From Rhizobium hidalgonense (GTDB taxonomy: Bacteria > Pseudomonadota > Alphaproteobacteria > Rhizobiales > Rhizobiaceae): 64,000 nucleotides of DNA. This document shows positions 1,534 through 29,906 of this stretch, in pieces. Both the position numbers and the translations under genes were made by a program. The stretch covers positions 62,001-126,000 of the forward strand of contig NZ_LODW01000033.1 in NCBI RefSeq assembly GCF_002914525.1. The letters run 5' to 3'. The notes below the pieces were generated by a model, which had not been told where the DNA came from, made no database searches, and saw nothing but the letters and a program-made list of their open reading frames with translations. How positions within the stretch are numbered: the stretch's first letter is position 1; each line of letters opens with the position of its first letter.

Positions 1534-2965
1534 GGAGGCGATCGCCGTCATTTGGAAGAGCGGTTCCAAACGCTGGGTGTCGGCTGCCGATCCCGCGGCC
1601 AGAAAGGCTGGCGTTCACGTGGGCATGCCGGCCGCCAAGGCGCAGGCGCTCCTCCAGGGCCTCCGGATGATCGACGCCGATGCCGCCGCCGATGCAGCGG
1701 CGCTCGATCGCATCACCATGTGGGCGCTCAGCCAGTATTCGCCGATCGTCGCCGTCGACGCGCCGGACGGCATCGTCATGGACACGGAGGGCGCGGACCA
1801 TCTGCAGGGCGGCGAGGAACGGATGTTGACGAGCATCGCCAACCGCTTCCGCGCCAAGGGCCTGACGACACGGGTCGCCATCGCCGACACGTGGGGTGCC
1901 GCCCACGCATGCGCTCGTGCCATCAACCGCGAAACCGTCGTCGTCCCGAGTGGGGAAACAATCCGGGCCGTCGAGCGCCTTCCGATCTCGTTGCTGCGGC
2001 TGCCGGAGAAAATCGTGGGTGATCTGCGCACGCTAGGCTTTCGGACAATAGGGGAGCTTTTGGCGACGCCGCGTGCTCCCTTGGCGCTTCGCTTCGGACC
2101 GGAAGTGGGTCGCCGTCTCGACCAGATGTTCGGTCGCGTCTGCGAACCAATAGATCCCATCCGTAGCCCGGAACTTGTCGAGGTCAGCCGATCCTTCGCC
2201 GAACCGATCGGCGCGGCGGAGACGATCAACAAGTATGTTGGACGGCTGGTTGTTCAACTCGTCGCCGAACTTCAGCGGAAGGGTCTTGGCGTCCGTCGCA
2301 CCGACCTCATCGTCGAGAAGGTCGACGGGGCCAGACAAGCGATTAGAGCGGGAACCGCCAAGCCCGTGCGAGACGTCGCCTGGCTGACGAAACTGTTCCG
2401 CGACCGGACGGAAAAGATCGAGCCGGGCTTCGGGATCGAAAAGCTGACCCTCGTCGCGGTGATGTCAGAACCGCTCGAGGAGAAGCAGAAGGCATCCTCG
2501 CTCGTCGACGACGAAGAGGCCGACATCACCCCGCTGATCGACGTCTTTGGCAATCGAGGCCAGCGCGTCTTCCGGGTCGCGCCGGTCGCGTCCGACGTTC
2601 CGGAGCGTAGCGTCCAGCGTATCGCCGCCGTCGGCGACGAGGTGACGGAGGGTTGGGTCCACCAGTGGCGGCGGCCGGTGCGGCTGTTTGCGCGTCCGGA
2701 TCCGATCGAGGCGATAGCTCTGCTTCCGGATCATCCGCCCGCCAGCATCACGTGGCGCGGCAAGCGCCATCGCGTCAAACGCGCGGATGGCCCGGAGCGT
2801 GTGTTCGGCGAATGGTGGAAGCGCGACAGCGAGCTAGAGGCGGTGCGGGACTACTTCGTCGTCGAAAACGAGATCGGCGAACGATACTGGATCTTTCGCT
2901 CCGGCGACGGCATCGATCCCGAAACGGGCTCCCATAAGTGGTTCATGCACGGGATATTCGGATGA
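1454..2965 (+). CDS. imuB: ImuB, Y-family polymerase-like mutasome hub
   Basis: A Y-family polymerase homologue of 503 residues. In this family ImuB is catalytically inactive and acts as a hub that binds the beta clamp, ImuA and DnaE2. Consistent with this, the N-terminus ([20 protein letters not shown]) lacks the VDMDxFY metal motif seen in the neighbouring dinB. The finger/thumb and little-finger regions are recognisable ([33 protein letters not shown] around residues 181-213). The start has GTAGGAG upstream. The stop overlaps the dnaE2 start as ATGA, a sign of translational coupling. Confidence 0.93.
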
Positions 2966-5900
2966 GATACGCCGAGCTGCAGGTCACGACGCATTTCAGC
3001 TTTCTTCGCGGGGCGTCTTCGGCCGACGAACTCTTTGTCACCGCCAATGAACTCGGCATCGAAGCTCTCGGCGTCGTCGACCGAAACTCTCTGGCAGGCA
3101 TCGTGCGAGCGCTGGAAGCATCCCGCGCGACGGGCGTCCGCCTCGTCGTCGGTTGCCGGCTCGATCTGCAGGACGGCATGTCGATCCTCGTCTATCCCAC
3201 GGATCGCGCCGCATATTCGCGCCTGACCCGCTTGCTGACATTCGGTAAGGGCAGGGGCGGCAAGGCGAACTGTATCCTGAATCTCGAAGACGTCGCCCTC
3301 TATTCTGAAGGGCTCCTCGGTATCCTCGTGCCCGACCTCCCAAACGACGCCTGCGCCGTCCAACTTCGCAAGATGGCTGAGATATTCGGGGACCGAGCGT
3401 ACGTCTCACTCTGTCTCCGGCGTCGTCCGAACGACCAGTTCAGGCTTCACGCGTTGTCGAACATGGCCGTAAAGCACCGTGTGAAGACGGTAGTCACCAA
3501 TGACGTTCTGTTCCACGAGCCTGGCCGGCGGCAGCTTCAGGACGTCGTCACCTGCATCCGCAACAACACCACCATCGACGACGTCGGCTTCGAGCGCGAG
3601 CGGCATGCCGACCGCTACCTAAAGCCGCCTGAAGAAATGGAGAGACTGTTTCCACGCTACCCCGAGGCGCTGGCGCGGACGATGGAGATCGTCGACCGCT
3701 GCAGGTTCTCGCTGGAGGAGTTGACCTACCAGTATCCCGAGGAGGCGATCCTCCCAGACAAGACGCCGCAGGAATCCCTCGAGCACTATGTCTGGGAATG
3801 CGTGCCCAACCGATATCCGGAGGGCCTACCGCCGGAGGTTCTCAAGATCGTCCGTCACGAACTCGATCTCATCCGGACGATGAAATACGCCCCATACTTC
3901 CTGACCGTCTTTTCGATCGTCCGCTTTGCCCGGTCGCAAGGCATCCTCTGCCAGGGGCGGGGGTCGGCGGCCAATTCAGCCGTCTGCTATATCCTTGGCA
4001 TTACCAGCATCGACCCTTCGACCAACGATCTCCTTTTCGAACGCTTCGTCTCCCAGGAGCGCGACGAGCCGCCGGACATCGACGTCGATTTCGAGCACGA
4101 ACGCCGCGAGGAGGTCATCCAATGGATCTACAAGACCTACGGGAAGGACAAGGCCGCACTCTGCTCCACAGTCACACGCTACAGGGCGAAGGGCGCCATC
4201 CGAGAGGTCGGCAAGGCGCTCGGCTTGCCCGAGGACCTCATCAAAGCCTTGTCCTCGGGCATGTGGGCGTGGTCGGAAGAGCTGGTCAGCGACCGCAGTC
4301 TTCGAGAGCAGGGCTTGAACCCGGAAGACCGCCGTCTGGCGTTGACCCTCAAGCTTGCCCAGCAGCTCATGGGCGCTCCTCGGCATCTGGGACAGCACCC
4401 AGGCGGCTTCGTCCTGACGCACGACCGCCTCGACGATCTCGTCCCGATCGAACCCGCCGCAATGGTCGACCGGCAGGTGATCGAGTGGGACAAGGATGAT
4501 GTCGAGGCGCTCAAATTCATGAAGGTCGACGTTCTGGCGCTCGGCATGCTGACCTGCATGGCGAAGGCCTTCGCTCTCATCCGAGAACACAAGGACGAGC
4601 ACCTTGATCTCGCGACCATCCCTCAGGAGGACCAGGCGACATATGCGATGATCCGAAAGGCCGACACCCTTGGCACTTTCCAGATCGAGTCGAGGGCGCA
4701 GATGGCAATGTTGCCGCGCTTGAAGCCGCGGACCTTCTATGACCTCGTGATCCAGGTGGCGATCGTCCGGCCCGGTCCGATACAGGGCGACATGGTGCAT
4801 CCCTATCTCCGCCGCCGGGAGGGCAAGGAGGCGGTCGTCTATCCGACGCCGGAACTGGAGGCCGTTCTCGGCAAGACCCTCGGTGTTCCGCTCTTCCAGG
4901 AGTCTGCGATGAAGGTCGCAATGGTCTGCGCCAGCTTCACCGGTGGCGAGGCCGATCAGCTTCGCAAGTCGATGGCGACCTTCAAGTTCACAGGTGGCGT
5001 CTCGCGCTTCAAGGACAAGCTCGTGTCCGGCATGATCAAGAACGGCTACGCGGCAGAGTTTGCCGAGAAGACCTTCAGCCAGCTCGAAGGATTCGGCAGC
5101 TATGGGTTCCCGGAATCCCATGCGGCATCGTTCGCCTTGATTGCCTATGCCTCCAACTATGTGAAATGCCACCACCCGGACGTCTTCTGCGCGGCACTGC
5201 TGAACTCGCAGCCGATGGGATTTTACGCGCCGGCCCAAATCGTCGGCTGCGCCAGGAACCACGACGTCGAGATTCGACCCGTCTGCGTCAACAATTCCCG
5301 GTGGGACTGCACGCTCGAGCGTATCGGCGATACCGATCACCACGCCGTCCGCCTCGGGATGCGTATGGTGCGCGGCCTCGCCGCTGCCGACGCCGCTCGT
5401 ATCGTGGCTGCCCGTATGGATCAACCGTTCGAAAGCATTGATGACATGTGGCGGCGGTCCGAGATCCCGGCGGCATCTCTGGTCGAACTCGCCGAGGCCG
5501 ACGCCTTCTTGCCGGCGCTGGGACTTCAGCGGCGCGACGCGTTGTGGGCGATCAAGGCCCTGCGTGACGAACCGCTTCCACTCTTTGCAGCCGCCTCGGA
5601 ACGAGAGGCGAGGGCGATCGTCGAGCAGCAGGAACCGGACGTCGCCCTCCGTCAGATGACGGAGGCGCACAACGTTGTCCAAGATTACAGTCACATCGGG
5701 CTGACGCTACGCGAACATCCCGTCGCATTCCTTCGAAAAGCCTTGGCAAAGCGCCAGATCGTCACCTGCGCGGAAACTATGAACGCGAGGGATGGTCGCT
5801 GGTTGATGACCGCTGGCCTCGTTCTCGTCCGGCAGCGGCCCGGCAGTGCGAAGGGTGTCATCTTCATGACGATCGAGGACGAGACCGGTCCGGCCAACGT

Positions 5901-9066: not shown

Positions 9067-9572
9067 CGCGAATACCGTGCATAGATGAAACTGAGGATCA
9101 TATATCGGGACATAAGTGCAAATAAAGGGACAAAACGTCAATTATCTGAATGAGCCCTCGCTACCAAACAAGTTTTGGGCCCGATCGACCTCCGTTGAGC
9201 ACCTTGGTATGGCTCGCGCTACGTTCAGTATCCAACGAATACGACAAGGCTGACCTTTTGATCGCCGCCCTCGGCGAGGTCCTGGCGTATCTAGTGGCAG
9301 TTGCTACCCAATTCCGCAAAATCCAGCCGGGGCGCTCTCTCGCCGGGAGTTTTAGCCGAAGCCCATCGCCGATGTCAGATGATCCGTTGCGGAGTACTCG
9401 CTGAGTAACGGCATCCGGTAGATGCTCATTTTTAGCCATTCGGATCTCGGACAGGCCCCCGCTTAGCGGGACACCGGCGGCTCGGTTGCGAAGGCGATTT
9501 ACCAAATGTCAGTGAAAGTGTTGCGGGGGTTTTCTAGCGGCGTATGTTTGGCTGCGTCATGGGGTAGTCCTG
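9067..9572. other. Stretch without a convincing gene
   Basis: It holds the likely promoter of the leftward nucleotidyltransferase gene (TTGACG on the minus strand near 9140) and the right arm of the inverted repeat. A leftward open frame of 114 codons covers 9161-9505 but has no recognisable domain or clear ribosome site, and the repeat arm lies inside it, so I do not call it a gene. Confidence 0.45.
9289..9313 (-). repeat. Inverted repeat, right arm
   Basis: Partner of the arm at 7874-7898, matching it in opposite orientation at 23 of 25 positions. Distance between arms is about 1.4 kb. Confidence 0.6.
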
Positions 9573-10844
9573 GTGCCGCGGATCCTTCTTTTGTTTGTCT
9601 TTGTCGCCAGCCTGTTCGCGGGACCGTCCTGTGCTGCCATAACCTATGAGCGCATGACGCTGCACGGTGACATGCGTGCTCTGGTGGTGAGCGGTGAGTT
9701 CGAGATCTCGGACGATCCAGTAGCGTTCGCCGGAGAAGTCGCCCTGTTCAAGCCGGCATTCATCACCTTCCGATCGGTCGGCGGAAACGTTACCTCTGCA
9801 ATGAAGATCGGAAGAATGATCCGTGCGCTAGGCATCTCGACATTGCAAATCCGGTCGGCCGAGTGCGCCTCAGCCTGTGCTCTCGCCTTCGTGGGCGGCG
9901 TCCGGCGCTCGGCCGAGGCTGGGTCCATCGGCGTCCACCAAGCTTCCTTTTCGGACGACGCCGCGCTTGATAGCAAGACTGCGGTGACCGCCGTGCAGGC
10001 GATGACCGCGGAAATCATCGGTTATCTCACCGAGATGGGCGTCAGCCCACAGTTGCTGCAGTTGAGCCTCTCGGTCGAGAGCTCGGACATGCGCTACCTC
10101 ACTTCTAGCGAGATGGCGAACTGGGGCGTCACGACGCCGGGTGCTGTAGGCGGGACCGACGTCGTAAGCACACCGTCCTCCACTCCGGCACAGGTTCCGA
10201 CTACATCGCCGTCCGAAGACGCGAACCCAACGTCGAAGTCGGATGACCCTTCTCAGGCGGCGTTGGCATTCGTCGCCAGGTACCATGACGCATGGTCGCT
10301 TCCGAACAGCCAGGCGATGGCATTCATGCGCCAAGCTTATGCCGACAGCGTAGACTTCTACGGCAAGCAGACTTCAATGGCTGACGTCCTTAAGGACAAA
10401 GAGACCTTTGCGGAGCGTTGGCCGGATCGAGCATACAGCGTTCGGCATGGCAGCGAGACCGTGAGCTGCATCGTGACCTGCCGCGTCACGGGGACGGTCG
10501 AATGGTTTTCCCGGAGCGTTCAACGCGGTAAGGCGTCTTCCGGTATCGCTGACTTCCAAGTCGTGTGGGATCCGCAGTCCAAGAAAATCCTTTCAGAGAG
10601 CAGCAAGGTTTTGAAGGCGGACAAGGGGCTTACCGAGCCGAGCCGACTGATCGCTCAGTGGGGAGAGGAAAACGGAAGCTGTCGAGGCAACTCCGGCGAC
10701 GATCCAGAAACCTGGAAAGCTTGTGAGCGACGGGAAGCTATAGGCGCGAAGCTCGATAAAATCGGTTGGTGCTACGGCCGCGAAGGCGAGGCCGGATACC
10801 AACATCAGTGGCACGTGTGCGGCCAGGATTCAGATCGGCCTTAA
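9573..10844 (+). CDS. Secreted ClpP-fold serine protease-like protein
   Basis: A 423-residue protein starting at GTG, with a signal peptide (PRILLLFVFVASLFAGPSCA). The domain up to about residue 190 resembles periplasmic proteins of the ClpP/crotonase fold (COG3904 type): FRSVGGNVTSAMKIGRMIR, the presumed nucleophile Ser in ECASACALAFVGG, and GSIGVHQ carrying a candidate catalytic His. A low-complexity Ser/Thr/Pro linker (about 190-225) joins it to a C-terminal domain with paired Cys residues that I do not recognise. The substrate is unknown. The ribosome site is weak, and an upstream ATG in the same area is closed by a stop. Confidence 0.72.
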   Translation: MPRILLLFVFVASLFAGPSCAAITYERMTLHGDMRALVVSGEFEISDDPVAFAGEVALFKPAFITFRSVGGNVTSAMKIGRMIRALGISTLQIRSAECASACALAFVGGVRRSAEAGSIGVHQASFSDDAALDSKTAVTAVQAMTAEIIGYLTEMGVSPQLLQLSLSVESSDMRYLTSSEMANWGVTTPGAVGGTDVVSTPSSTPAQVPTTSPSEDANPTSKSDDPSQAALAFVARYHDAWSLPNSQAMAFMRQAYADSVDFYGKQTSMADVLKDKETFAERWPDRAYSVRHGSETVSCIVTCRVTGTVEWFSRSVQRGKASSGIADFQVVWDPQSKKILSESSKVLKADKGLTEPSRLIAQWGEENGSCRGNSGDDPETWKACERREAIGAKLDKIGWCYGREGEAGYQHQWHVCGQDSDRP

Positions 10845-11036
10845 CCTCGTCTTGTCGCTCGGCGGCGGGTCATCGGGCAGAGGGGATACGGACTACACCT
10901 TGAATCTATTCTGTCGAGATCTCATCTTCGGGAGAGCATTCCTAATCGCTTTCAAGCGAGGCACACTGCAATAGCCGGTACTGATTCCGTCCTGCGTGCG
11001 ACCGATGCAAATCGCTTCTCGAACTCTACGAGGTAA

Positions 11037-20142: not shown

Positions 20143-22014
20143 ATGACTAACCTTCCTAATGGTCGCCGGACGGTGACTCTGGAGCGCGTCACCTACGGTT
20201 TCGCCCTTAAAACTGCCGCCAGGCTTGGAGGCGCTTTCAAGAAGACCGAGAGCGGCCGGCAGATCGTAATTGTTCTACGACTGCCTGTTGGATCTGCGTT
20301 TGACGAGTACGTCGCCGCGGCGAGCGTCATGGTGCGTGAGGTCGAGGCGTTGCGCAACTTCGCAGTTGCTGCTCCGAGAATCGGCAACAAAGGTGGAATC
20401 GATTTCCAGACGATTAGCTCTGATTTGAAATCAAGGCCTTCGCTGCTAATCGTCTGGCCGTCTGGCTACGCCATGCCTCGAGAGATCGCTCTGGCTGCCG
20501 ATCGCGCCGTGGATGTCGGACCGGTCCGCCCATTCCATCTCGTCGCAGGCGCCAAGCAGTTTGCAAGTCAGAATATCGACTTGGCGGAAGCGAGGAAGAT
20601 GATGGAATATCCTCTTTCAGAGGTCTTCGCAGCATTCAGAACCGGTAGACCAGCTTCCAGCGTGCTGGCACGTCTGACCGAAATGGCAGATAACGCTCCG
20701 CGCCCAGTTGACGGACCCTCTCTCGGAGACCTCGTGGGGTACGGCGAGGCACGGACTTGGGGGTTGTCGCTCGCTCAGGACATCGGCGCTTGGAGGGAAG
20801 GGGCGCTCGCTTGGACGGACGTCGATGGGGGGCTGCTACTGAGCGGAGCGCCTGGAACTGGAAAGACCATGTTTGCCGGCGCGCTCGCGCGGTCCTGTGG
20901 CGCGCATCTCGTTGCGACGTCCGTCGCGCGCTGGCAAGCGGCAGGACGTCTCGACGATACATTGAAGGCGATGCGCAAGAGTTTCGACGAGGCCAGTACA
21001 CATAAGCCCAGCATCTTGTTCATCGACGAGTTCGACGGCATCAGCGATAGAGCACGGGTTGTTGGAACCGAGCATGAGACTTATTGGACCCAGGTGATCA
21101 ACTTCCTGCTCGAGTTGATCGATGGCCATGAAAGGCTCGAAGGCGTCGTCGTCATCGGCGCGACAAATCATCCCGACGCCATCGACGCCGCCCTCCTGCG
21201 GCCCGGACGTCTCGACCGCCACATCAAGATCTCGCTGCCGGACAACGAGGAGCGCAAGCACCTTGCGCGCACCTATTTCGGCGACCAACTGTCCGAAAGC
21301 GACGTCGAAGCGATTGCCGCGGCGACCGCCGGATTCGCTGGAGCACATTTCGAGAAGACCAGCCGTGAAGCCAGGAGAGCCGCCCGACGGACAGGGCGGG
21401 CGGTCTCCATCGAGGACGTTTTGGCCGCCCTTCCCGTGCCAAAAAGAATCGCAGGCGGCGAACGTAGAATGGTCGCCATTCACGAGGCCGGGCACGCCGT
21501 AGTCGGAGTTCGCCTTGGGGTCGGCGAGCTGAAGACCGTAGCCGTTCCATGGGAGGCTCACGCCTCGCACCCCCTGGGCTTCGCGCACTTCCAATTCGAC
21601 GAGAACCCCCTCTGGGATAGACAGGAGTATCTCGACCAAGTCGCCGTGACGCTGGGCGGCAGGGCGGCGGAGGAGATGATCCTCGGCACCGCCTTCGATG
21701 GCGCGGGCGCTGCGGAAGGCTGTGACCTGCACAAGGCGAGCGACCTAGCCACGATGTTGGAGCTCCAACTCGGGATGGGAGAGGGGCTTGCCTACTTCAA
21801 TCTGAAATCCGTCGAGCAACGGGACCGCATCCGACAGAACAATACGGTAGTCGCAGCACGGGTCGAGCGTCTCCTCGGTCGGGAAATGGCGCGAAGCCGG
21901 GAGATCGTTACGCGGTTCCGTGCAGCCGTTGAAAAGATCGCCGACATCCTGGCGGAGAAGGCGATCATCGAGGGGGACGAAGTCAGGCGCATCATCCGGG
22001 AGACGTCGAGATGA
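20143..22014 (+). CDS. Soluble FtsH-like AAA+ ATPase with M41 metalloprotease domain
   Basis: A 623-residue protein with an N-terminal domain of unknown type (1-190). The AAA+ module follows: Walker A GAPGTGKT at 235-242, Walker B ILFIDEFD at 291-298, arginine-finger region RPGRLDR at 353-359. The M41 zinc protease has HEAGH at 447-451 and a likely third ligand Asp in GCDLHKASDLATM. FtsH normally has two N-terminal membrane helices; none is seen here, so it should be cytosolic. GGGAGGG precedes the ATG, and the stop overlaps the next gene as ATGA. It is distinct from the housekeeping FtsH and is probably an accessory or defence enzyme. Confidence 0.85.
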   Translation: MTNLPNGRRTVTLERVTYGFALKTAARLGGAFKKTESGRQIVIVLRLPVGSAFDEYVAAASVMVREVEALRNFAVAAPRIGNKGGIDFQTISSDLKSRPSLLIVWPSGYAMPREIALAADRAVDVGPVRPFHLVAGAKQFASQNIDLAEARKMMEYPLSEVFAAFRTGRPASSVLARLTEMADNAPRPVDGPSLGDLVGYGEARTWGLSLAQDIGAWREGALAWTDVDGGLLLSGAPGTGKTMFAGALARSCGAHLVATSVARWQAAGRLDDTLKAMRKSFDEASTHKPSILFIDEFDGISDRARVVGTEHETYWTQVINFLLELIDGHERLEGVVVIGATNHPDAIDAALLRPGRLDRHIKISLPDNEERKHLARTYFGDQLSESDVEAIAAATAGFAGAHFEKTSREARRAARRTGRAVSIEDVLAALPVPKRIAGGERRMVAIHEAGHAVVGVRLGVGELKTVAVPWEAHASHPLGFAHFQFDENPLWDRQEYLDQVAVTLGGRAAEEMILGTAFDGAGAAEGCDLHKASDLATMLELQLGMGEGLAYFNLKSVEQRDRIRQNNTVVAARVERLLGREMARSREIVTRFRAAVEKIADILAEKAIIEGDEVRRIIRETSR

Positions 22015-22316: not shown

Positions 22317-22493
22317 GGTCTGACTGCAATCAATACGTCATGCAGGGAACGTCTATTGGAAATCGAAAAAAAAGCGGCCGCTAGCACATTTATCGCCTTC
22401 AGCCCCAGCAAGCCAATCAAGCAGCAAGTCCTCGTTACAACTGCAACCGGGACGGGATATCATTCTGAATAAGACGATTCGCCGGGGGCACGC

Positions 22494-23477
22494 ATGCAAA
22501 TCGAAAAGGAAGGAATAGACGACGTTCTTCACGTTCTCTACGAGGCACTTCGCAAGGATGGCAGGTACCACAAGGGCTCGCGAGGCGGTACGCGCGAGCT
22601 CTTGTCGGTAGCAATTCGCATACGGAATGCCCGTGCACGGATCAGCCGCTCGGAAGATCGCGGAAAACCCTTCAGCGCCGTCGGCGAGCTGCTTTGGTAT
22701 CTCGCCGGATCAAACAAGCTCGAGTTCATCGTTCCCTACATCGACTTGTACAAAGAAGATGCGGAAGACGATGGAACCCTACATGGTGCCTACGGGCCAC
22801 GGCTCGTGAACATGCGGGACAAGATAAATCAGCTCGAGAACGTCGTCGACCTCCTGAAGGCGAAGCCAGGGTCGAAACGCGCTGTCATTCAGCTCTTCGA
22901 TGCAAATGATCTCGTTGGGAATTTCAAGGAAATACCCTGCACAACGACTGCTCAGTTCCTGGTCCGAGAGGGCCGGGTTCACCTCTCCGTGACGATGCGC
23001 TCGAACGACGCCTACTACGGTCTGCCTCACGATGTCTTCTGCTTTACCATGTTGCAGGAGATGGTCGCTCGACGCCTAGGCTACGACATCGGCGAATATT
23101 ACCACTACGTCGGAAGCATGCACGTCTATGAAGACTTTCTTCCGGATTTGGACAATTACCTCGAAGAGGGATGGCACCGAACTGAAAGCATGCCGCCCAT
23201 GCCAGAGGGGAATCCCTTCGACCTCGTAGGAACGATCTTAAAGGCGGAAGCAGCAGCTAGGAGCGGTGAGACTTTCCGTTCAGAAGATTTTGTTGCAGAG
23301 CCTTACTGGGCTGATGTTCTTCGCCTTGTCCAAGTCTTTTGGGCATCCGGCAACGGGGAGCGTCTCGACCAACTCAAGAGCGAATTCCATAGTCAGATAT
23401 ACAGAACCCACCTCGAATCCAGGCGTCACCTGCGCCGACGGGTCAACCTGGATACAGTCGGAGAAGTCAGCAAATGA
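22494..23477 (+). CDS. Thymidylate-synthase-family enzyme, dCMP-type active site
   Basis: A 327-residue ThyA-fold protein. The catalytic Cys is in IPCTTTAQF (C149) and the phosphate-binding Arg region is RSNDAYYGLPHD. In canonical ThyA the last motif reads G-L-P-x-N; here the Asn is Asp (D180), the change that distinguishes dCMP hydroxymethylases and MilA-type enzymes from dUMP methylases. The later G-x-x-H-x-Y element is GSMHVY, also altered. It is therefore more likely a pyrimidine-nucleotide (hydroxy)methylase acting on a cytosine nucleotide than a housekeeping ThyA. Its stop overlaps the next gene (ATGA), a predicted thymine-pyrophosphorylase-like protein. Confidence 0.82.
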   Translation: MQIEKEGIDDVLHVLYEALRKDGRYHKGSRGGTRELLSVAIRIRNARARISRSEDRGKPFSAVGELLWYLAGSNKLEFIVPYIDLYKEDAEDDGTLHGAYGPRLVNMRDKINQLENVVDLLKAKPGSKRAVIQLFDANDLVGNFKEIPCTTTAQFLVREGRVHLSVTMRSNDAYYGLPHDVFCFTMLQEMVARRLGYDIGEYYHYVGSMHVYEDFLPDLDNYLEEGWHRTESMPPMPEGNPFDLVGTILKAEAAARSGETFRSEDFVAEPYWADVLRLVQVFWASGNGERLDQLKSEFHSQIYRTHLESRRHLRRRVNLDTVGEVSK

Positions 23478-24394
23478 GATGGCCTACACGTTCCGCCAAA
23501 AAGGCCCAGCTCGTCGCCGCGTTGTCCCAGCACTCCAACAACGTCCGTCCTTTGCAAGGTATCATGGATCCAGTTGCTCTTGACACACTTGCGACCCAAT
23601 TCATAGCCAGCCTTAGGCGCGAGGACTATTATAGCAGAGTTCAGCAGAAGAAGGTGTCTGCAGATCGTGCCGATCCAAACAATCCGGCTTTCGATGCGGA
23701 GCGAGCGGTCGCCTACCACCTACAGGCCGGCAATATTGAGGAAGCCGCCTGGCTTATATTCTTGATGACACACCTTGCGCGCCCGGCAGACACGGGCTGG
23801 CTTCGCCTGCAGGACATATATGGCAAACGCGGCCAGGGCATTTGGACGTGGGAAATCGTTTCTGCAGATCCGGCCGCATTTTCAGACTGGGTCTACGCGA
23901 ATGCAAACCTGATCCGTGGAAAGTTTGGCAATCACCGGAAATATGAAAGCCTGGAAAAGGGCACCAAGCGCGAGCTTTCCAAGGTGCTGAAAACGTATAT
24001 TGATCTGGTCGGTCCAAGCCAGCGTGCTTTCTTCGCAGACGCCGTCCGTATAGCCGGCAACGATCCTCAGGTGATCTTCGACCACCTCTATAGAAAGATG
24101 GGCGCCGTGTTCTCTTTCGGCAGGCTCGCCAAATTCGACTATCTCTCGCTGATCGGTAGATACGGCGTCGCTCCAATATCTTCCGGCTCGGCCTACTTAA
24201 CCGGCGCGACCGGGCCAGCGTCCGGTGCCAAGCTTCTATTCTTCGCTAATCCCGACGCCCAGGCATCGCCCAAGCAGCTTCAGGCTTTACTGGACGAACT
24301 GGATCTCAGTATCGGAGTGGGCATGGCAGTGATGGAAGACGCCCTCTGCAACTGGCAGAAGAGCCCGACAGAGTTCATCCACTTTACAGGATGA
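23474..24394 (+). CDS. Alpha-glutamyl/putrescinyl thymine pyrophosphorylase-like protein
   Basis: A 306-residue protein that I match from memory to the clade of bacterial proteins named after phage alpha-glutamyl/putrescinyl-thymine pyrophosphorylases, which are related to helix-hairpin-helix DNA glycosylases. Recognisable parts are NPAFDAERAVAYHLQAGNIE (52-71), WLIFLMTHLARPADTGWLRL, KFGNHRKYESL, and RLAKFDYLSLIGRYGVAPIS with GSAYLTGATGP. In phages such enzymes convert pyrophosphorylated hydroxymethyluracil into hypermodified thymine. Translationally coupled (ATGA) to the ThyA-like gene, it suggests a base- or nucleotide-modification pathway. The family call needs a profile search. Confidence 0.68.
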   Translation: MRWPTRSAKKAQLVAALSQHSNNVRPLQGIMDPVALDTLATQFIASLRREDYYSRVQQKKVSADRADPNNPAFDAERAVAYHLQAGNIEEAAWLIFLMTHLARPADTGWLRLQDIYGKRGQGIWTWEIVSADPAAFSDWVYANANLIRGKFGNHRKYESLEKGTKRELSKVLKTYIDLVGPSQRAFFADAVRIAGNDPQVIFDHLYRKMGAVFSFGRLAKFDYLSLIGRYGVAPISSGSAYLTGATGPASGAKLLFFANPDAQASPKQLQALLDELDLSIGVGMAVMEDALCNWQKSPTEFIHFTG

Positions 24395-24396
24395 AG

Positions 24397-25503
24397 TCAG
24401 ACCTCGACGGGATCTATCTGTTCCCAAGTCCATGTGCGCTTGAGGAAGTTCAGCTTCTCCTTGCCGATCATGTCTCGCTTCTGCATCTGGCCTACAGTCA
24501 GGCCCGGTGCGATCTTCGATTTGACGCTGAACCGAACGACCTGATCGCGATCTGCCTTCAGGCTCTCGAATTCGTCGAGACGCTCGTCAGGTATAATGCA
24601 TTTCGTTGCGTAAGTATTCGCTTCGTCCTCGCGCATATCTGAAGGCCCTTCCTCGTCGGTGTCGACGAACGTCTGCGCATGGTGAAGGACGAGATGGCCG
24701 ATTTCGTGGAGAAGTGTGAACCAGAAATGGTCGTCCGAGCGGTGGCGGAAGCTCATTAGGATCATCGCCTTGTCCGGCGAAACAAGCCGGGTGGCACCGC
24801 TGGCCCTGCACCCTGCGGGCGCCTTCACAACGGCAAACGCGACACCGGCCTCCGCGAGGAGAGTGCGGAGCTTCGGTATGAACTGTTCCGGCAGCTTGAG
24901 CCGCGACAGTTGCTTGATCGTCTCAACTCGATCCTCCAGGTTTCCCGCATTCCACTCCAGTGTCTTCACAAGATCTGCCTCGAGCTCGCCTCGACGAAGC
25001 CAGAGGAGAACTGCCTCTTCCTTCGTTGCGAACGCGCTCGTGCTACGGAAGTCCGTACGCCCGACCAGACGGCCATAGTGCTGGTGCCAAGACTTCGCGT
25101 TGGGGACGCTGAAGTAGACCAGCCTCTTCCCCACTTCTTCGTAACGGCGCTCGTCCGTCATTTTTCCACGAGGAGGTTTCAGTCCGGGTGCAGGCACATT
25201 TTGAATGAATTCATCGATTTCGTCACGGGATATCGCTGCAACGGCGCGTTCGACCGCCCGCTCGAAATTCTCCTGACGCTTCAGCCAGAAGGAAGGTGAG
25301 GCGCCCAGCGCCTCTGCAAGCGAACGGGCGACGTCGGTATCGATCACCTTCGAGCCGTCGAGAAGGGAACGGAGCGTCCGTAGACCCCCTTCGAGCTTGG
25401 TCGCGACCTGGTCTGCTGTCATTAGGCGGCGCTGCATGACGGCGCGGATCGAATCGCCTGGTTTGGAAAACCAGTCTGTCGCGTTTGCCTCATCCATCAT
25501 CAT
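24397..25503 (-). CDS. XRE-family HTH protein with ImmA/IrrE (M78) peptidase domain
   Basis: About 368 residues. An N-terminal helix-turn-helix of HigA type (DSIRAVMQRRLMTADQVATK, then GLRTLRSLLDGSKVIDTDVA) is followed by a linker and a C-terminal metallopeptidase with the zinc motif HEIGHLVLHH and a downstream ligand region EDEANTYATKCIIP. Such proteins are antitoxin-like regulators that can cleave a repressor or toxin. The start is taken as the ATG at 25503, which overlaps the upstream stop as ATGA; further Met codons follow at once. It ends two bases from the convergent base-modification gene. Confidence 0.85.
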   Translation of the reverse strand: MMMDEANATDWFSKPGDSIRAVMQRRLMTADQVATKLEGGLRTLRSLLDGSKVIDTDVARSLAEALGASPSFWLKRQENFERAVERAVAAISRDEIDEFIQNVPAPGLKPPRGKMTDERRYEEVGKRLVYFSVPNAKSWHQHYGRLVGRTDFRSTSAFATKEEAVLLWLRRGELEADLVKTLEWNAGNLEDRVETIKQLSRLKLPEQFIPKLRTLLAEAGVAFAVVKAPAGCRASGATRLVSPDKAMILMSFRHRSDDHFWFTLLHEIGHLVLHHAQTFVDTDEEGPSDMREDEANTYATKCIIPDERLDEFESLKADRDQVVRFSVKSKIAPGLTVGQMQKRDMIGKEKLNFLKRTWTWEQIDPVEV

Positions 25504-25823
25504 CGTCTCCATATCGCGGTCACTTTCAGGCGCGTCACGCTCGACCACTCCGTCTTTCCGTCCTCGCCGACAGCGTATTTGCGGCCGACCGGGACGAAGT
25601 TTGCGATGTAGTCCGGTCCGACTGCGATTTGAAAGGCGTCGGCACCGCAGGACAGCAAGTCATTCACAAGAATCTCATGCCACTCCACAGCATTGTCGGC
25701 AGCCTCCGCTTCCGCAAGCATGTTGAAGACAATATTCGCGAGGAACGGCCCGAAAGCTTCCTCGCCTCTCTCGTATAGGCAACAGGAATCGCGAAGCTCG
25801 TCATTCTCGAACGATATCTTCAA
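25500..25823 (-). CDS. HigB-like toxin candidate
   Basis: A protein of about 107 residues (KISFENDELRDSCCLYERGE onward) with the size, basic-aromatic ending (TRLKVTAIWRR) and position of a RelE/HigB-type toxin next to an XRE-ImmA gene. The start is uncertain: TTG at 25823 has GAGG upstream, GTG at 25832 and TTG at 25868 are alternatives. Its stop overlaps the downstream start (ATGA). Sequence similarity is weak enough that the toxin role is inferred mostly from operon context. Confidence 0.58.
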   Translation of the reverse strand: MKISFENDELRDSCCLYERGEEAFGPFLANIVFNMLAEAEAADNAVEWHEILVNDLLSCGADAFQIAVGPDYIANFVPVGRKYAVGEDGKTEWSSVTRLKVTAIWRR

Positions 25824-25899
25824 CCCAGCCACCTCGACGAGGTTTCGACGTCGATCATCAACAGCCAAGCTTGCGCGACCATAAATTCTGTATGTGTCC

Positions 25900-26265
25900 T
25901 CATAAAGGAAGCGCCGACCCTGACGGCTTCGCCGCCTGTTTTGCGCGGATCATCTCGATACGATCCCAGTTGCGGGATAGTTCGCGATCCGCGGAGATTT
26001 CGAGGTCGACATCCTGGGCGTTGCAAAGAGCCGCAAGCGTAACCATGACGCCTCCGGTCTCTTGAGTGATTTCCCCAACAGGTCGTGAATAGACGTAACG
26101 GACGAGCGCGATGGCATCCTCTTCGCTGCAACCACTCGCCTGGGCGAGCTCCAGGGATTCCTCAAGGAATCGATGCGAGCGCTCCGTGCGATTGGAGACG
26201 GAACTTGGTGGGAAGCAGGCGCACACCCAGTCGGCAACGCGCTGCTGATACGACCGCAGGCTCAT
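25900..26265 (-). CDS. MazG-like all-alpha NTP pyrophosphohydrolase
   Basis: A 121-residue protein with the all-alpha NTP-PPase pattern: ERSHRFLEESLELAQA supplies the E-E-x-x-E metal ligands and ETGGVMVTLAALCNAQDVDL the later acidic helix. Such enzymes hydrolyse (d)NTPs to monophosphates. AAGGAG precedes the ATG. It is the first gene of the leftward group with the HigB-like and ImmA genes, and lies opposite the ThyA-like pair, so nucleotide-pool chemistry recurs in this block. Confidence 0.78.
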   Translation of the reverse strand: MSLRSYQQRVADWVCACFPPSSVSNRTERSHRFLEESLELAQASGCSEEDAIALVRYVYSRPVGEITQETGGVMVTLAALCNAQDVDLEISADRELSRNWDRIEMIRAKQAAKPSGSALPL

Positions 26266-26675: not shown

Positions 26676-27644
26676 TTGTTTGACCAGATTGAGGACGTCA
26701 AAGACTACCTCGCAGACGGTGAACTCGACCAGGTTCGCCGCAAAAATGAAGGAGGGCGTTCCAATTTAGTAGGACACCAATACGAAGTTGCTTATGCCTC
26801 CATAGAGGTGCTGCGTCTCGCCGCGCAGATGGTGATGGCTTCGCTCGACCCAGACAAAACCAAAATCGCAGCGCAGTTAAGAGCGTCTTTCGTAGACGAT
26901 TTCGCGATCATCGAGCGCGGCGTGTTCTGGTGGTTCGAAATGAAGGCGGGCAAAGATGTTCGGTGGGACAAAAAACAGTCGAAAACGGCTCGAAGTATCG
27001 AAGAAAACTTTAGGAGCATGATCAATATCGATAACCGGCGGCGTCGGAAGGCATTTTATCGCCTCGTTGTGGCCGATGCCGATGCCGCAGACAATCTGGT
27101 TGTTTCCTGTCCGGACGGACTCGAAGAGGTAGAGGTCATTCATTTTCCGTGGGCGCTTATTCCCCGCGACGTCGAAGCACTTTTCCCTGATTTCCAGGAA
27201 TGGGTCCGCTGGATCCTGCCGGCTCGCAAGGCAGAAACGTTTAAAGGACTTGAGCTATACCCAATCGAGGCTTCGTACGGCGAAGCCGAAGCAAACGCGG
27301 CGCTACGACAATTTCGAGGGTTTGTGTTTGATATGCGACCCGCGACAACCTATTCAATACGCGAGGCTTTCAAGGAGATCGATAGGGCATGTCTGGGCCT
27401 CTTCGGCTGGGAAACTGACGATCTTGACGCCGAAGTGGCTTCAATCCTGGATCAGATTCCGAATTTCCAATTTGTGACTTTCAATGGCCAGCTCAACTAT
27501 GTGCTCTACGAACGGATTACCGGCAGCGTGCCTGCTCGCCTAGGGGCGGACTCTGGCAGGAGGTTCGAAAGTGCTGTCAGACAACTTAAACCGAGGACGG
27601 TTGATGCCCTCAAACCCATTCTGAGAGGCAAATATGGCCCGTGA
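26676..27644 (+). CDS. PD-(D/E)XK-like protein, putative nuclease
   Basis: A 322-residue protein starting at TTG, with AGGAA upstream and no in-frame ATG nearby. The segment VDDFAIIERGVFWWFEMKAGKD (about residues 72-93) has the D...E-x-K arrangement of PD-(D/E)XK nucleases. The conserved GHQYEVAYASIEVLRLA ahead of it resembles the N-terminal part of defence-associated endonucleases of the Cap4/DUF4297 sort; I cannot confirm the family. It overlaps the next gene by 11 bases. Base composition is less GC-rich than the core genes to the right, in line with acquired DNA. Confidence 0.6.
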   Translation: MFDQIEDVKDYLADGELDQVRRKNEGGRSNLVGHQYEVAYASIEVLRLAAQMVMASLDPDKTKIAAQLRASFVDDFAIIERGVFWWFEMKAGKDVRWDKKQSKTARSIEENFRSMINIDNRRRRKAFYRLVVADADAADNLVVSCPDGLEEVEVIHFPWALIPRDVEALFPDFQEWVRWILPARKAETFKGLELYPIEASYGEAEANAALRQFRGFVFDMRPATTYSIREAFKEIDRACLGLFGWETDDLDAEVASILDQIPNFQFVTFNGQLNYVLYERITGSVPARLGADSGRRFESAVRQLKPRTVDALKPILRGKYGP

Positions 27645-28350
27645 AGCAAATTTTTCTAATGAAGAACACGCGGTTCGCAACGCTATCCGCCAGATTGTTT
27701 CTTCTGAAGCCACCTACGGAAACCTTCGAGCGCTAGGGTATGTATTGGCTGCGGTGTTCGCCGATCGTCTGCGTGGATTGAGCGTGCGTTTGGTTGCGGA
27801 TCCAATTGACGTCGACCTGCTGGCTTCTGGCTTCATCGAGCGACTTCAGGAAGATGATGTGGATGTGCGGTTGTCTTGCTTCTGGAACACTCTTTGTCCC
27901 GTTAACAATGACCCGCTCGACAAATCGAGGATCGCAAGACTGGACTCGCAGTATCACGAACAGCCGCGCACTGTTCCCGTCCACATCATAGTACTCAAGC
28001 TTCATCTCGACGACGGCGTCGAAGCTGCCGCGAACGCAGTTCGAGCCGCCGAGACCTTCGGCATTGACAACGTCGCCGTCATGGCTCCTTGCGCCACTCC
28101 AAGGCAGCAACAGCTTCTCAATCGGCAGCTTCTTACCTACTTTCAAGAAGTACCGCCGTTGCTCGTCGGGGTCGGTGCCGACAGCAGAACATTTTTCGAT
28201 CTCAAACGTCTGGCCGAGGAACGAGCCCGCTATCTCAGCACGATCGGAATCAACGACCTCTCATTCGTAGTGCCGTCCTCCATCTTGGATAAGCCTCCTA
28301 TTCCCAAGGGCCGGCCCCCCACTGCCTCCCGTTCATTCGGTCGAGGATGA
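27634..28350 (+). CDS. Unknown partner of the putative nuclease
   Basis: A 238-residue protein. A central stretch (VPVHIIVLKLHLDDGVEAAA, then IDNVAVMAPCATPRQQQ) looks like a Rossmann-type or phosphoribosyltransferase-like alpha/beta core, without a clean PRPP-binding motif. The C-terminal tail is Pro/Arg-rich. Its 11-base overlap with the preceding gene shows that they are co-translated. No function assigned. Confidence 0.6.
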   Translation: MAREANFSNEEHAVRNAIRQIVSSEATYGNLRALGYVLAAVFADRLRGLSVRLVADPIDVDLLASGFIERLQEDDVDVRLSCFWNTLCPVNNDPLDKSRIARLDSQYHEQPRTVPVHIIVLKLHLDDGVEAAANAVRAAETFGIDNVAVMAPCATPRQQQLLNRQLLTYFQEVPPLLVGVGADSRTFFDLKRLAEERARYLSTIGINDLSFVVPSSILDKPPIPKGRPPTASRSFGRG

Positions 28351-28434
28351 ACTCTAGTTCGCTCCAGGCGACGCGGTGTACACGCGTCGTCTTACTGTTC
28401 GAGCTGCTTATCGACGCGATCGTTAGCTCTGTCG

Positions 28435-29460
28435 TCAAGCCAACGTCGAACGTGCCACGAGATCCGCCAGACGCGTTCGAGCTTCGCGCTCCGTCCTATA
28501 GCTCTGGCAATCTTTGCGATGGCGACGTCCCCCGATTGTATATTCAACGGCCGGCTTGATGCCGGGTTGGAAGATGGCGCGCTCCTCCCTTCCTTGGAAG
28601 ATGCAAGTCCACTCGTTGTCGTTCAAGCGGATCCAGCGTCGAGCCGGGCGCAGCCGCTCTAGTTCTTGTCGAAGGGCGGCAGCCGTCGGGTATCTCTCGC
28701 CAACAATGCGGTTGGTCGCCTTTCTGATGATACGCTTTAGCTTCGAAGGGACATGGTCGGCAAAGCCTATCTGGTTCGCGAGTTTGCCCTCTTTGACAAG
28801 AGCTGGCCAGCCCGCACTTCCCAAGACCGCGTCCCAGCCGGTCATGTTGTTTACAGCACGCAGCAGCGTCATACCTGCTGCGAACACGTCGCTGGCAGGC
28901 GAGAACTCCCGATTATTGAAGGCCTCCGGTGAGGCGTGCGGCCTATAGAACATATCCGTGACGCTCACCCCGCTCTTTGGGTGGATGACGGTACCGAAGT
29001 CCGACAGTCTGGCAATGCCGCCTGTCAGCATGATGTTGCCCGGCTTGACGTCTCTGTGGACGATTCCACGGTTGTGGGCATGCTCAAGCGCGAACAAGAT
29101 CTGCTTCATGTAGCCGATAGTTTCGATGACAGGTACGAATTCCTGCTGGAGCCTATCAGCCAGTGAACCGCCGTCCAGATACTCCATTTCGATGAGGACT
29201 GCGCCGTCGAAGACATCGGCGGTGAGCACTTTCACGACATGATCGTGGCCGCAGAGGCTCTGCGCCTGCGCTTCGACGACGGCGCGGTGCTCGACCGGGT
29301 TGGCAACCCGGACTAGCTTCAGGGCAGACTCTCGACCGAGGTTCCGATTGACGACGTGGAAGACATCCCCGAACTGGCCGCTACCAAGCTGTCGGATAAT
29401 CTCGTATTTGTTCAGCACGATCTGGCCGGGTTGAAACGTGAGGGGAGCGACGGAGGACAT
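28435..29460 (-). CDS. Serine/threonine protein kinase
   Basis: A 341-residue Hanks-type kinase. The Gly-rich loop is LGSGQFGDVFHV, the ATP-binding Lys is in SALKLVRV, the catalytic loop is HRDVKPGNIM and the DFG motif is SDFGTV. A short C-terminal domain (from about 270) with Cys and basic residues follows and has no membrane helix, unlike PASTA-type kinases. The ATG at 29460 overlaps the stop of the upstream gene by one base. Together they form a two-gene unit, a layout seen in phage-defence kinases, though that role is inferred. Confidence 0.88.
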   Translation of the reverse strand: MSSVAPLTFQPGQIVLNKYEIIRQLGSGQFGDVFHVVNRNLGRESALKLVRVANPVEHRAVVEAQAQSLCGHDHVVKVLTADVFDGAVLIEMEYLDGGSLADRLQQEFVPVIETIGYMKQILFALEHAHNRGIVHRDVKPGNIMLTGGIARLSDFGTVIHPKSGVSVTDMFYRPHASPEAFNNREFSPASDVFAAGMTLLRAVNNMTGWDAVLGSAGWPALVKEGKLANQIGFADHVPSKLKRIIRKATNRIVGERYPTAAALRQELERLRPARRWIRLNDNEWTCIFQGREERAIFQPGIKPAVEYTIGGRRHRKDCQSYRTEREARTRLADLVARSTLA

Positions 29461-29906
29461 CAAAGGCTCATCCAAGCGGCAAGCGCTGCGAGTTTCGCGG
29501 CGTTCGGCCACGCAGCAGGACAATCCTCGATCCGCTCGTCGCAAGCCGTGAACTTGTCACCCGAATGCGCCAGGGCCTTCTTCGTGAAGGTGTGGATGGT
29601 CGACTGTGCAATTGCCAACCCTCGCTCGTAGGCGACAAGGGAAAGAATCCCGAACGGGAAGGTCAAATACGCGATTTGATCGGCCTTTTTGCCGTCCATC
29701 GACAAACGGTATGCGAGGCCTTGCGGTTGTTGCGCTTCGATCAGTTCGTTGAACGTCTGCTTGAAGAAGTTTGCCATCTCCGGTCGCGGCTGATCTACCT
29801 CGAACCGATGACGACCATGCATGAGGTACCGTGGATCCGCTCTAGTGCCGTCCATCAGGCAGAAGTGCAACTCTCCCTTCTGGAGATTAAACCCAAGGAT
29901 CGCCAT
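29460..29906 (-). CDS. DUF3010-like protein (RNase H/RuvC-like fold)
   Basis: A 148-residue protein. The beginning (MAILGFNLQKGELHFCLMDG) and middle (YRLSMDGKKADQIAYLTFPF) resemble DUF3010, which has a RuvC-like fold. The ending has two Cys residues (TACDERIEDCPAAWPNAAKL). It precedes the kinase with a one-base stop/start overlap, so it is co-translated. It could be the sensor or target of the kinase. Confidence 0.6.
   Translation of the reverse strand: MAILGFNLQKGELHFCLMDGTRADPRYLMHGRHRFEVDQPRPEMANFFKQTFNELIEAQQPQGLAYRLSMDGKKADQIAYLTFPFGILSLVAYERGLAIAQSTIHTFTKKALAHSGDKFTACDERIEDCPAAWPNAAKLAALAAWMSL

Follow-up and report, generated by a model that had tools for sequence, protein, structure and literature searches.

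The stretch of DNA analysed here, a window of 64,000 nucleotides from Rhizobium hidalgonense (contig NZ_LODW01000033.1, positions 62,001 to 126,000 of the forward strand), carries two plus-strand genes that overlap as ATGA, at the places given for them by an original prediction made from the letters alone (Table 1). Gene 1 encodes an enzyme of the thymidylate synthase (TS) superfamily, and gene 2 a protein of the aGPT-Pplase3/amino acid:DNA transferase (ADDT) family. Converging on gene 2, and ending about 3 bp from its end, is a gene for a HigA-type helix-turn-helix (HTH) fused to an ImmA/IrrE zinc protease (HigA-ImmA), and beside it lies a gene for a small protein with a HigB/RelE fold; we refer to these two as the switch pair. 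Both were overlooked by the original prediction, and they occupy the space between gene 2 and the MazG-like gene which it had placed 1.5 kb away on the other strand. That gene is where it was said to be, but its identity as a MazG NTPase is weak: its strong PHROG match (Table 1) is to a family of function unknown, the MazG PHROG was matched only at 0.071 and a PDB pyrophosphatase at 0.03, and there was no match in Pfam.

The family profile of HigA-ImmA, searched against the PDB, matches the HigA antitoxin 4mcx at its N-terminus (4.1e-10), and the HExxH motif (H281, E282, H285) is invariant in all 48 HigA-ImmA sequences. The small neighbouring protein has zero matches in Pfam or PADLOC, and because its family profile gave nothing meaningful in the PDB, its identity as a HigB comes from its fold only: for the AlphaFold2 model (predicted local distance difference test, pLDDT, 88.8) VIA ranks HigB 9chl_B first (Z 9.8 over 87 aligned residues), with nothing but RelE/HigB-type toxins in the 20 rows below it. 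The last residue of the model, 122, aligns to HigB residue 91, and therefore the window protein stops before the counterpart of His92, which we take to be the catalytic residue of HigB; a conserved C-terminal His was not found in the alignment of the HigB-fold proteins (A1). A HigA-type HTH and a HigB fold in adjacent genes is the layout of a HigBA type II toxin-antitoxin system, and the HigB-fold protein is the probable partner, as antidote or toxin, of the HigA-protease.

These genes form a conserved cassette. Loci (L001-L084) were drawn from plasmids, IMG/VR, GTDB contigs and further genomes and gave 63 distinct gene-2 loci, an 81-bit fragment (L056) being dropped; because the loci were found through gene 2, all counts are fractions of gene-2 loci. 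The TS-like gene, gene 2, HigA-ImmA and the HigB-fold gene are all present in 55 of the 63, and six loci are truncated by contig ends (L035, L043, L054, L065, L068, L071). Order and orientation, with the TS-like gene followed by gene 2 and then the convergent HigA-ImmA gene, are the same in every locus with all three (59/59), at a median spacing between gene 2 and HigA-ImmA of 3 bp (range -45 to 1016; above 100 in three loci). The divergence of the four proteins is also correlated, with Mantel r of 0.84-0.92 over the 55 loci and at most 0.25 in 500 permutations. A family-wide search gave six other loci, five with all four genes (one of these being, by its position, very likely L025 again) and one with the TS-like gene and gene 2 only. 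A profile of the protease, run on 150 relatives, found six genomes at 1e-20: three with the cassette, one (G071) with the switch pair alone, and two with distant relatives.

A MazG-like gene of the window type accompanies 28 of the 63 loci, and in nine (L005, L018, L046, L049, L050, L052, L053, L065, L071) an extra gene of about 265 codons stands between the TS-like gene and gene 2. Thus, of the two-gene modified-pyrimidine pathway that had been suggested for the window, the dCMP-type TS relative and its ADDT-family partner hold, but the two-gene extent does not, the unit being one of four to five genes.

Table 1. Coordinates of the cassette genes in the window and of the extra gene found at other loci
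Feature	Position	Strand	Detail
TS-superfamily enzyme, predicted deoxycytidylate 5-hydroxymethylase (gene 1)	22494..23477	+	327 aa
aGPT-Pplase3/ADDT family protein (gene 2)	23474..24394	+	306 aa
HigA-type HTH fused to ImmA/IrrE zinc protease	24397..25548	-	Peptidase_M78 2.8e-9
Small HigB/RelE-fold protein	25500..25868	-	AlphaFold2 fold match
MazG-like protein, first gene of minus-strand operon	25900..26265	-	PHROG 14118 1.9e-54
Whole unit	22434..26265	.	Extent judged from alignment to closest relative L020
Extra ~265-aa gene	L049:7196-7990; L005:7175-7978; L046:7138-7959		Between TS-like gene and gene 2

Predicted chemistry of the enzyme arm

Gene 1 is, as it had been described, ThyA-like with the catalytic Cys: its protein matches the Pfam family Thymidylat_synt (PF00303; 2.7e-29, 102.6 bits, cut-off 24.3), and the host has a separate ThyA, whose score of 422.7 bits compares with 102.5 for gene 1. 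The best PDB match is the CMP hydroxymethylase MilA (1.3e-38), the best TS match standing at 4e-23, and the altered GSMHVY motif is real, MilA carrying GSVHIY. Among the 61 distinct cassette sequences above 300 bits (the window's included, those below 300 bits left out), C149, S170 and D180 are invariant (61/61). The alignment places D180 at the position of the ThyA Asn, which the host ThyA retains, so that the Asn-to-Asp replacement first read from the window by itself is borne out. Three residues ahead of the Cys, Glu or Asp is found in 57 of the 61 sequences (E146 in the window), where the host ThyA has Leu.

According to PMC6400193, Asp179 of the T4 enzyme picks cytosine over uracil, and in hydroxymethylases an Asp or Glu three residues before the Cys activates water, where TS has Leu; PMC5175136 gives the MilA changes A176S/K133R as shifting preference from CMP to dCMP. 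Asn occupies the base-selecting position in three control sequences, namely phage PaMx11 TS, a TS from an E. coli plasmid (L121) and the host ThyA. Two plasmid-borne TS relatives, called bacimethrin-like from their gene content (deoxyribosyltransferase and methyltransferase genes adjoin them), have MRAND, the CMP type with Ala at the Ser170 position. Together, the key positions suggest that gene 1 encodes a deoxycytidylate hydroxymethylase, with 5-hydroxymethyl-dCMP as its predicted product.

The assignment of gene 2 to the pyrophosphorylase clade, which had been made by recognition, was upheld by profile search: Pfam aGPT-Pplase3 (PF18746) is matched at 9.5e-113 (376.6 bits, curated cut-off 25) and ADDT (PF18724) at 2.3e-65 (221 bits, cut-off 26.2). 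The aGPT-Pplase names reportedly go back to Iyer et al. 2013; ‘thymine pyrophosphorylase’ misleads here, because the predicted base is cytosine. Into the same ADDT family falls gp46 of phage PaMx11 (1.6e-27), the 5-PmdU glycinyltransferase PUGT (structure 8z2n). The motif ExxLCxW is common to gene 2 and PUGT, the invariant E288, L291, C292 and W294 having PUGT counterparts. An hhalign comparison of gene 2 with PUGT alone covered no more than 16 columns around this motif, at 1.8%, and sequence and profile searches of the PDB with gene 2 gave no meaningful match.

The extra protein of about 265 residues carries motifs, LGLNPSN and GFNHNxQSS, which by eye resemble those of a relative of uracil-DNA glycosylase (UDG). 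Four examples gave nothing convincing in Pfam, the PDB gave nothing, and hhalign against three UDG groups returned probabilities of 0.3, 0.1 and 16% (four controls, below 1%).

Distribution and mobility of the cassette

Occurrence is sporadic: six of 200 relatives, one of 385 genomes in the class, four of 398 in the phylum and seven of 297 in the family, these samples overlapping and the window genome being counted in each. Hosts include Alpha- and Gammaproteobacteria, Actinomycetota, Spirochaetota and a Flavobacterium metagenome-assembled genome. Gene 2 was found by tblastn in eight plasmid records (the eighth with the same match figures as the record H6), and all seven that were inspected have the TS-like gene, gene 2 and the convergent protease gene, the last annotated as an ImmA/IrrE metallopeptidase except in one, where it is an unnamed open reading frame (ORF) matched by profile. 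One of the carriers, a Pantoea plasmid, also has phage structural genes. Among 50,697 phage records there was no gene 2 (tblastn, E up to 0.1), and the placing of the system outside known phages by the original prediction stands. The closest relative, L020 (Rhizobium sp. S152, 16.9 kb), aligns to the window at 72% across the whole unit, and between 14 and 36 kb of the window it has no other match above 150 bases at 1e-10. The cassette is mobile, being carried on plasmids, IMG/VR contigs and chromosomal islands; ‘chromosomal’, as the pathway had been called, does not hold as a general rule. In the window it sits between genes that we read by eye as Ku and nrdJ.

A version of the cassette, covering at least 80% of the length, is present in 226 of 5,426 complete E. 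coli genomes (about 4%), so that the system could be tested in laboratory strains. Identity reaches at least 99% in 245 of the 250 matching E. coli records, and each of the 259 places lies on a chromosome. The layout of TS-like gene, gene 2 and convergent protease gene is the same as in the window, and the neighbours are a divergent MazG-like gene and a type I restriction system. Of two E. coli records, one has gene 2 under the RefSeq name ‘alpha-glutamyl/putrescinyl thymine pyrophosphorylase clade 3 protein’ and the other as ‘hypothetical protein’. Beside the XRE-ImmA gene, at the predicted place, is a HigB-fold ORF (L159:8161-8487, minus strand; 81 bits with the family profile), which is without RefSeq annotation in both records.

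A possible defence role and its alternatives

The switch pair brings to mind PD-lambda-2, a validated defence system with a HigB-like and Xre-peptidase pair, in which, as reported, the Xre-peptidase alone is toxic and the HigB-like protein rescues (PMC9519451). HigA-ImmA matches the PADLOC component PD-Lambda-2_B at 3.6e-23 in the window and 8.7e-30 in the E. coli copy, and the combination of a HigB-like protein with a HigA-like domain fused to a peptidase is shared. For component A the HigB fold is seen, but PADLOC matched neither A nor C among the proteins scanned from the window (10 of them) and from E. coli. The cassette differs from PD-lambda-2 in having a convergent operon for the TS-like and ADDT proteins and, often, a MazG-like gene. 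Its flanks are also consistent with a defence setting: at 1e-10, flanking ORFs match 81 PADLOC families (125 of 294 ORFs used as input) and controls seven (119 of 205 ORFs, from 16 other regions in six cassette genomes), an excess which is supportive only, because families and not proteins are counted (one protein can match several) and because the flanks include plasmids while the controls come from large contigs.

The enzyme arm has its own parallels. Like the thymine hypermodification of phage PaMx11, with its TS, HMUDK kinase and ADDT/PUGT, it couples a TS-superfamily enzyme to an ADDT-family transferase; unlike that system it has the cytosine-type Asp and not Asn, is bacterial, has a toxin-antitoxin-like pair attached and showed no HMUDK in the genomes and plasmids searched. 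MilA is its closest solved structure, and with MilA and the bacimethrin-type enzymes it shares the Asp at the base-selecting position and GSxHxY; it differs in Ser170 (the deoxy type, Ala176 in MilA) and in having no deoxyribosyltransferase partner. The DefensePredictor report counts thymidylate synthase and 5hmdU kinase domains among newly validated defence domains, with aGPT-Pplase as a predicted one, and the legend of its Fig. 6F names aGPT-Pplase, HTH and UDG (PMC13092281). Nucleobase-modification enzymes in bacterial defence are thus common to that work and the cassette. Genes were grouped there into transcription units when they lay on the same strand with gaps of no more than 30 bp, followed by manual adjustment, and a convergent switch would therefore probably have been kept apart from the enzyme genes. 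Among the titles and abstract openings listed by searches of the open-licence literature, we found no prior description of the four-gene unit.

On balance we lean towards the gene pair being the enzyme arm of a mobile cassette of four to five genes that serves to defend against phages or mobile elements; the defence role that had been raised for the pair is probably right. If so, the TS-like enzyme would make 5-hydroxymethyl-dCMP, which host kinases might let into DNA or which might stay a nucleotide, and the ADDT protein would put an amino acid or similar group on the hydroxymethyl carbon of cytosine, with an extra, perhaps glycosylase-like, protein encoded between the two genes in one subgroup. 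The HigB-fold protein and HigA-ImmA protease could work as a switch like that of PD-lambda-2, sensing infection and either freeing or regulating the enzyme arm, arresting the cell, or doing both, and the MazG-like protein may trim the nucleotide pool. In its full form, an immune system that builds amino-acid-decorated cytosine into DNA or nucleotides on infection, gated by the HigBA-protease and activated by something other than HMUDK, this model is tentative and we would not yet bet on it. Were it true, bacteria would be shown to use base chemistry of the viral kind, probably on cytosine, and both a novel DNA modification and a novel means of activating the hydroxymethyl group might come to light. 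The cassette itself, the genes of which carry only individual annotations in the records that we inspected, brings together two separate fields, those of phage DNA-base hypermodification and of toxin-antitoxin immunity, in a single conserved and mobile unit.

Several observations weigh against this reading. The two halves are not always together: gene 2 is alone in two of the 63 loci (L055, L077), one genome has the TS-like gene and gene 2 without the switch pair (L158/L161), and in G071 the switch pair lacks the enzyme arm (L093:6659-8151). A comparison of upstream regions with shuffles, which covered exact matches, found no operator shared between the two promoters; the exception, L050, exceeded its 40 shuffles by 13 to 11. 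In the TS-like enzyme, position 128 (MilA 133) is Arg in 44 of the 61 sequences, and a MilA-like Lys in 17, the window among them. The presumed place of T4 Ser94, located by spacing to the invariant Tyr100 since the T4 enzyme itself is outside the alignment, is Gly98 in 57 of 61 where Ser or Thr was expected; Gly also occurs there in PaMx11 TS and other relatives. Because of this residue we file the protein as a TS-superfamily enzyme working like a dCMP hydroxymethylase. TS relatives of the same Ser/Asp type also occur in very different plasmid clusters (L118, L119). The AlphaFold2 model of gene 2 (pLDDT 93.0, pTM 0.89, from a 23-sequence alignment) has PUGT 8z2n as its top VIA match, ahead of DUF2419 and HhH DNA glycosylases, at a Z of 10.8 (216 residues aligned, root-mean-square deviation 4.0, 12% identity) and a Foldseek E of 0.47 that lie within the chance range for helical models, so that the ADDT argument rests on the sequence family.

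In phages, the hydroxymethyl group is activated first, through phosphorylation by HMUDK kinases. HMUDK PF18723 was found in none of eight cassette genomes and none of four cassette plasmids, and PF18748 in none of the eight genomes, other cassette hosts, E. coli among them, lying outside the search; the PaMx11 control matches both families, PF18748 below its cut-off. This step without a candidate is the main gap: a different kinase may do the work, or else the chemistry is not that of the phages.

The same enzymes might instead mark the element itself, constantly decorating its own cytosines and those of the host against restriction, with the HigBA-protease as an addiction module. Its presence on IMG/VR contigs and on plasmids, one of them the Pantoea plasmid that has phage structural genes, would fit, as would the general knowledge that phages modify their own DNA with ADDT-type enzymes, of which PUGT is one. 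We regard this as unlikely, given that gene 2 is absent from the phage records, that every E. coli place is chromosomal, that the enzymes are tightly coupled to a sensor-type protease and that no HMUDK kinase was found in the eight genomes. Constant hydroxymethylcytosine would also suit poorly a genome with McrBC, of which the window's own, alone among the eight, has a partial family match (2.0e-6; 28.7 bits, cut-off 23.9), although this is weak evidence because the base rate is unknown. Less probable again is a nucleotide antimetabolite, in which gene 2 would act as an N-glycosidase and, together with the TS-like enzyme, would release a growth-stopping modified pyrimidine after the manner of MilA/MilB and the bacimethrin enzymes. 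MilA is indeed the closest solved TS relative, TS relatives do lie in the bacimethrin-like clusters with their deoxyribosyltransferase and methyltransferase genes, and the gene 2 model also resembles DUF2419, a salvage enzyme for queuosine monophosphate (VIA Z 9.1); but Ser170 is of the deoxy type in all cassette enzymes, with Ala in the two bacimethrin-like ones, and gene 2 matches ADDT and not the deoxyribosyltransferases.

That the HigBA-protease serves only as a stability module, with the enzyme pair as unrelated cargo beside it, seems to us very improbable: either half can stand alone, as in G071 and L161, but the invariant arrangement, the spacing of a few base pairs, the matched divergence across several phyla and the same layout in E. 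coli all speak for association. As far as sequence goes, the predicted modification may serve as a weapon, as a self-mark or as a signal.

Neighbouring genes and related clusters

Directly upstream of the cassette in the window (20143-22014, plus strand) is a gene for an AAA+ ATPase with an M41 (FtsH-type) protease domain, and a related gene is also upstream at L034, L048 and L082; it is possibly a separate, recurring defence neighbour. On the other side (26676-29544) are two adjacent plus-strand genes without an informative Pfam match, followed by a minus-strand Ser/Thr kinase gene whose product resembles the PADLOC mad6 and PD-T4-6 kinases. Near the switch pair of G071 (L093), a plus-strand ORF at 9381-10883 looks JAB/E1-like by eye and is perhaps another defence locus.

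The L118 and L119 clusters (Geobacillus, Streptococcus salivarius) have genes for PqqD-family, QueA-like and kinase-like proteins beside their TS relatives and possibly make a nucleoside natural product. The E. coli plasmid L121 carries (2828-5759) metallophosphoesterase, weakly TS-like, MazG and Asn-type TS genes in a row, a possible further nucleotide-modification system.

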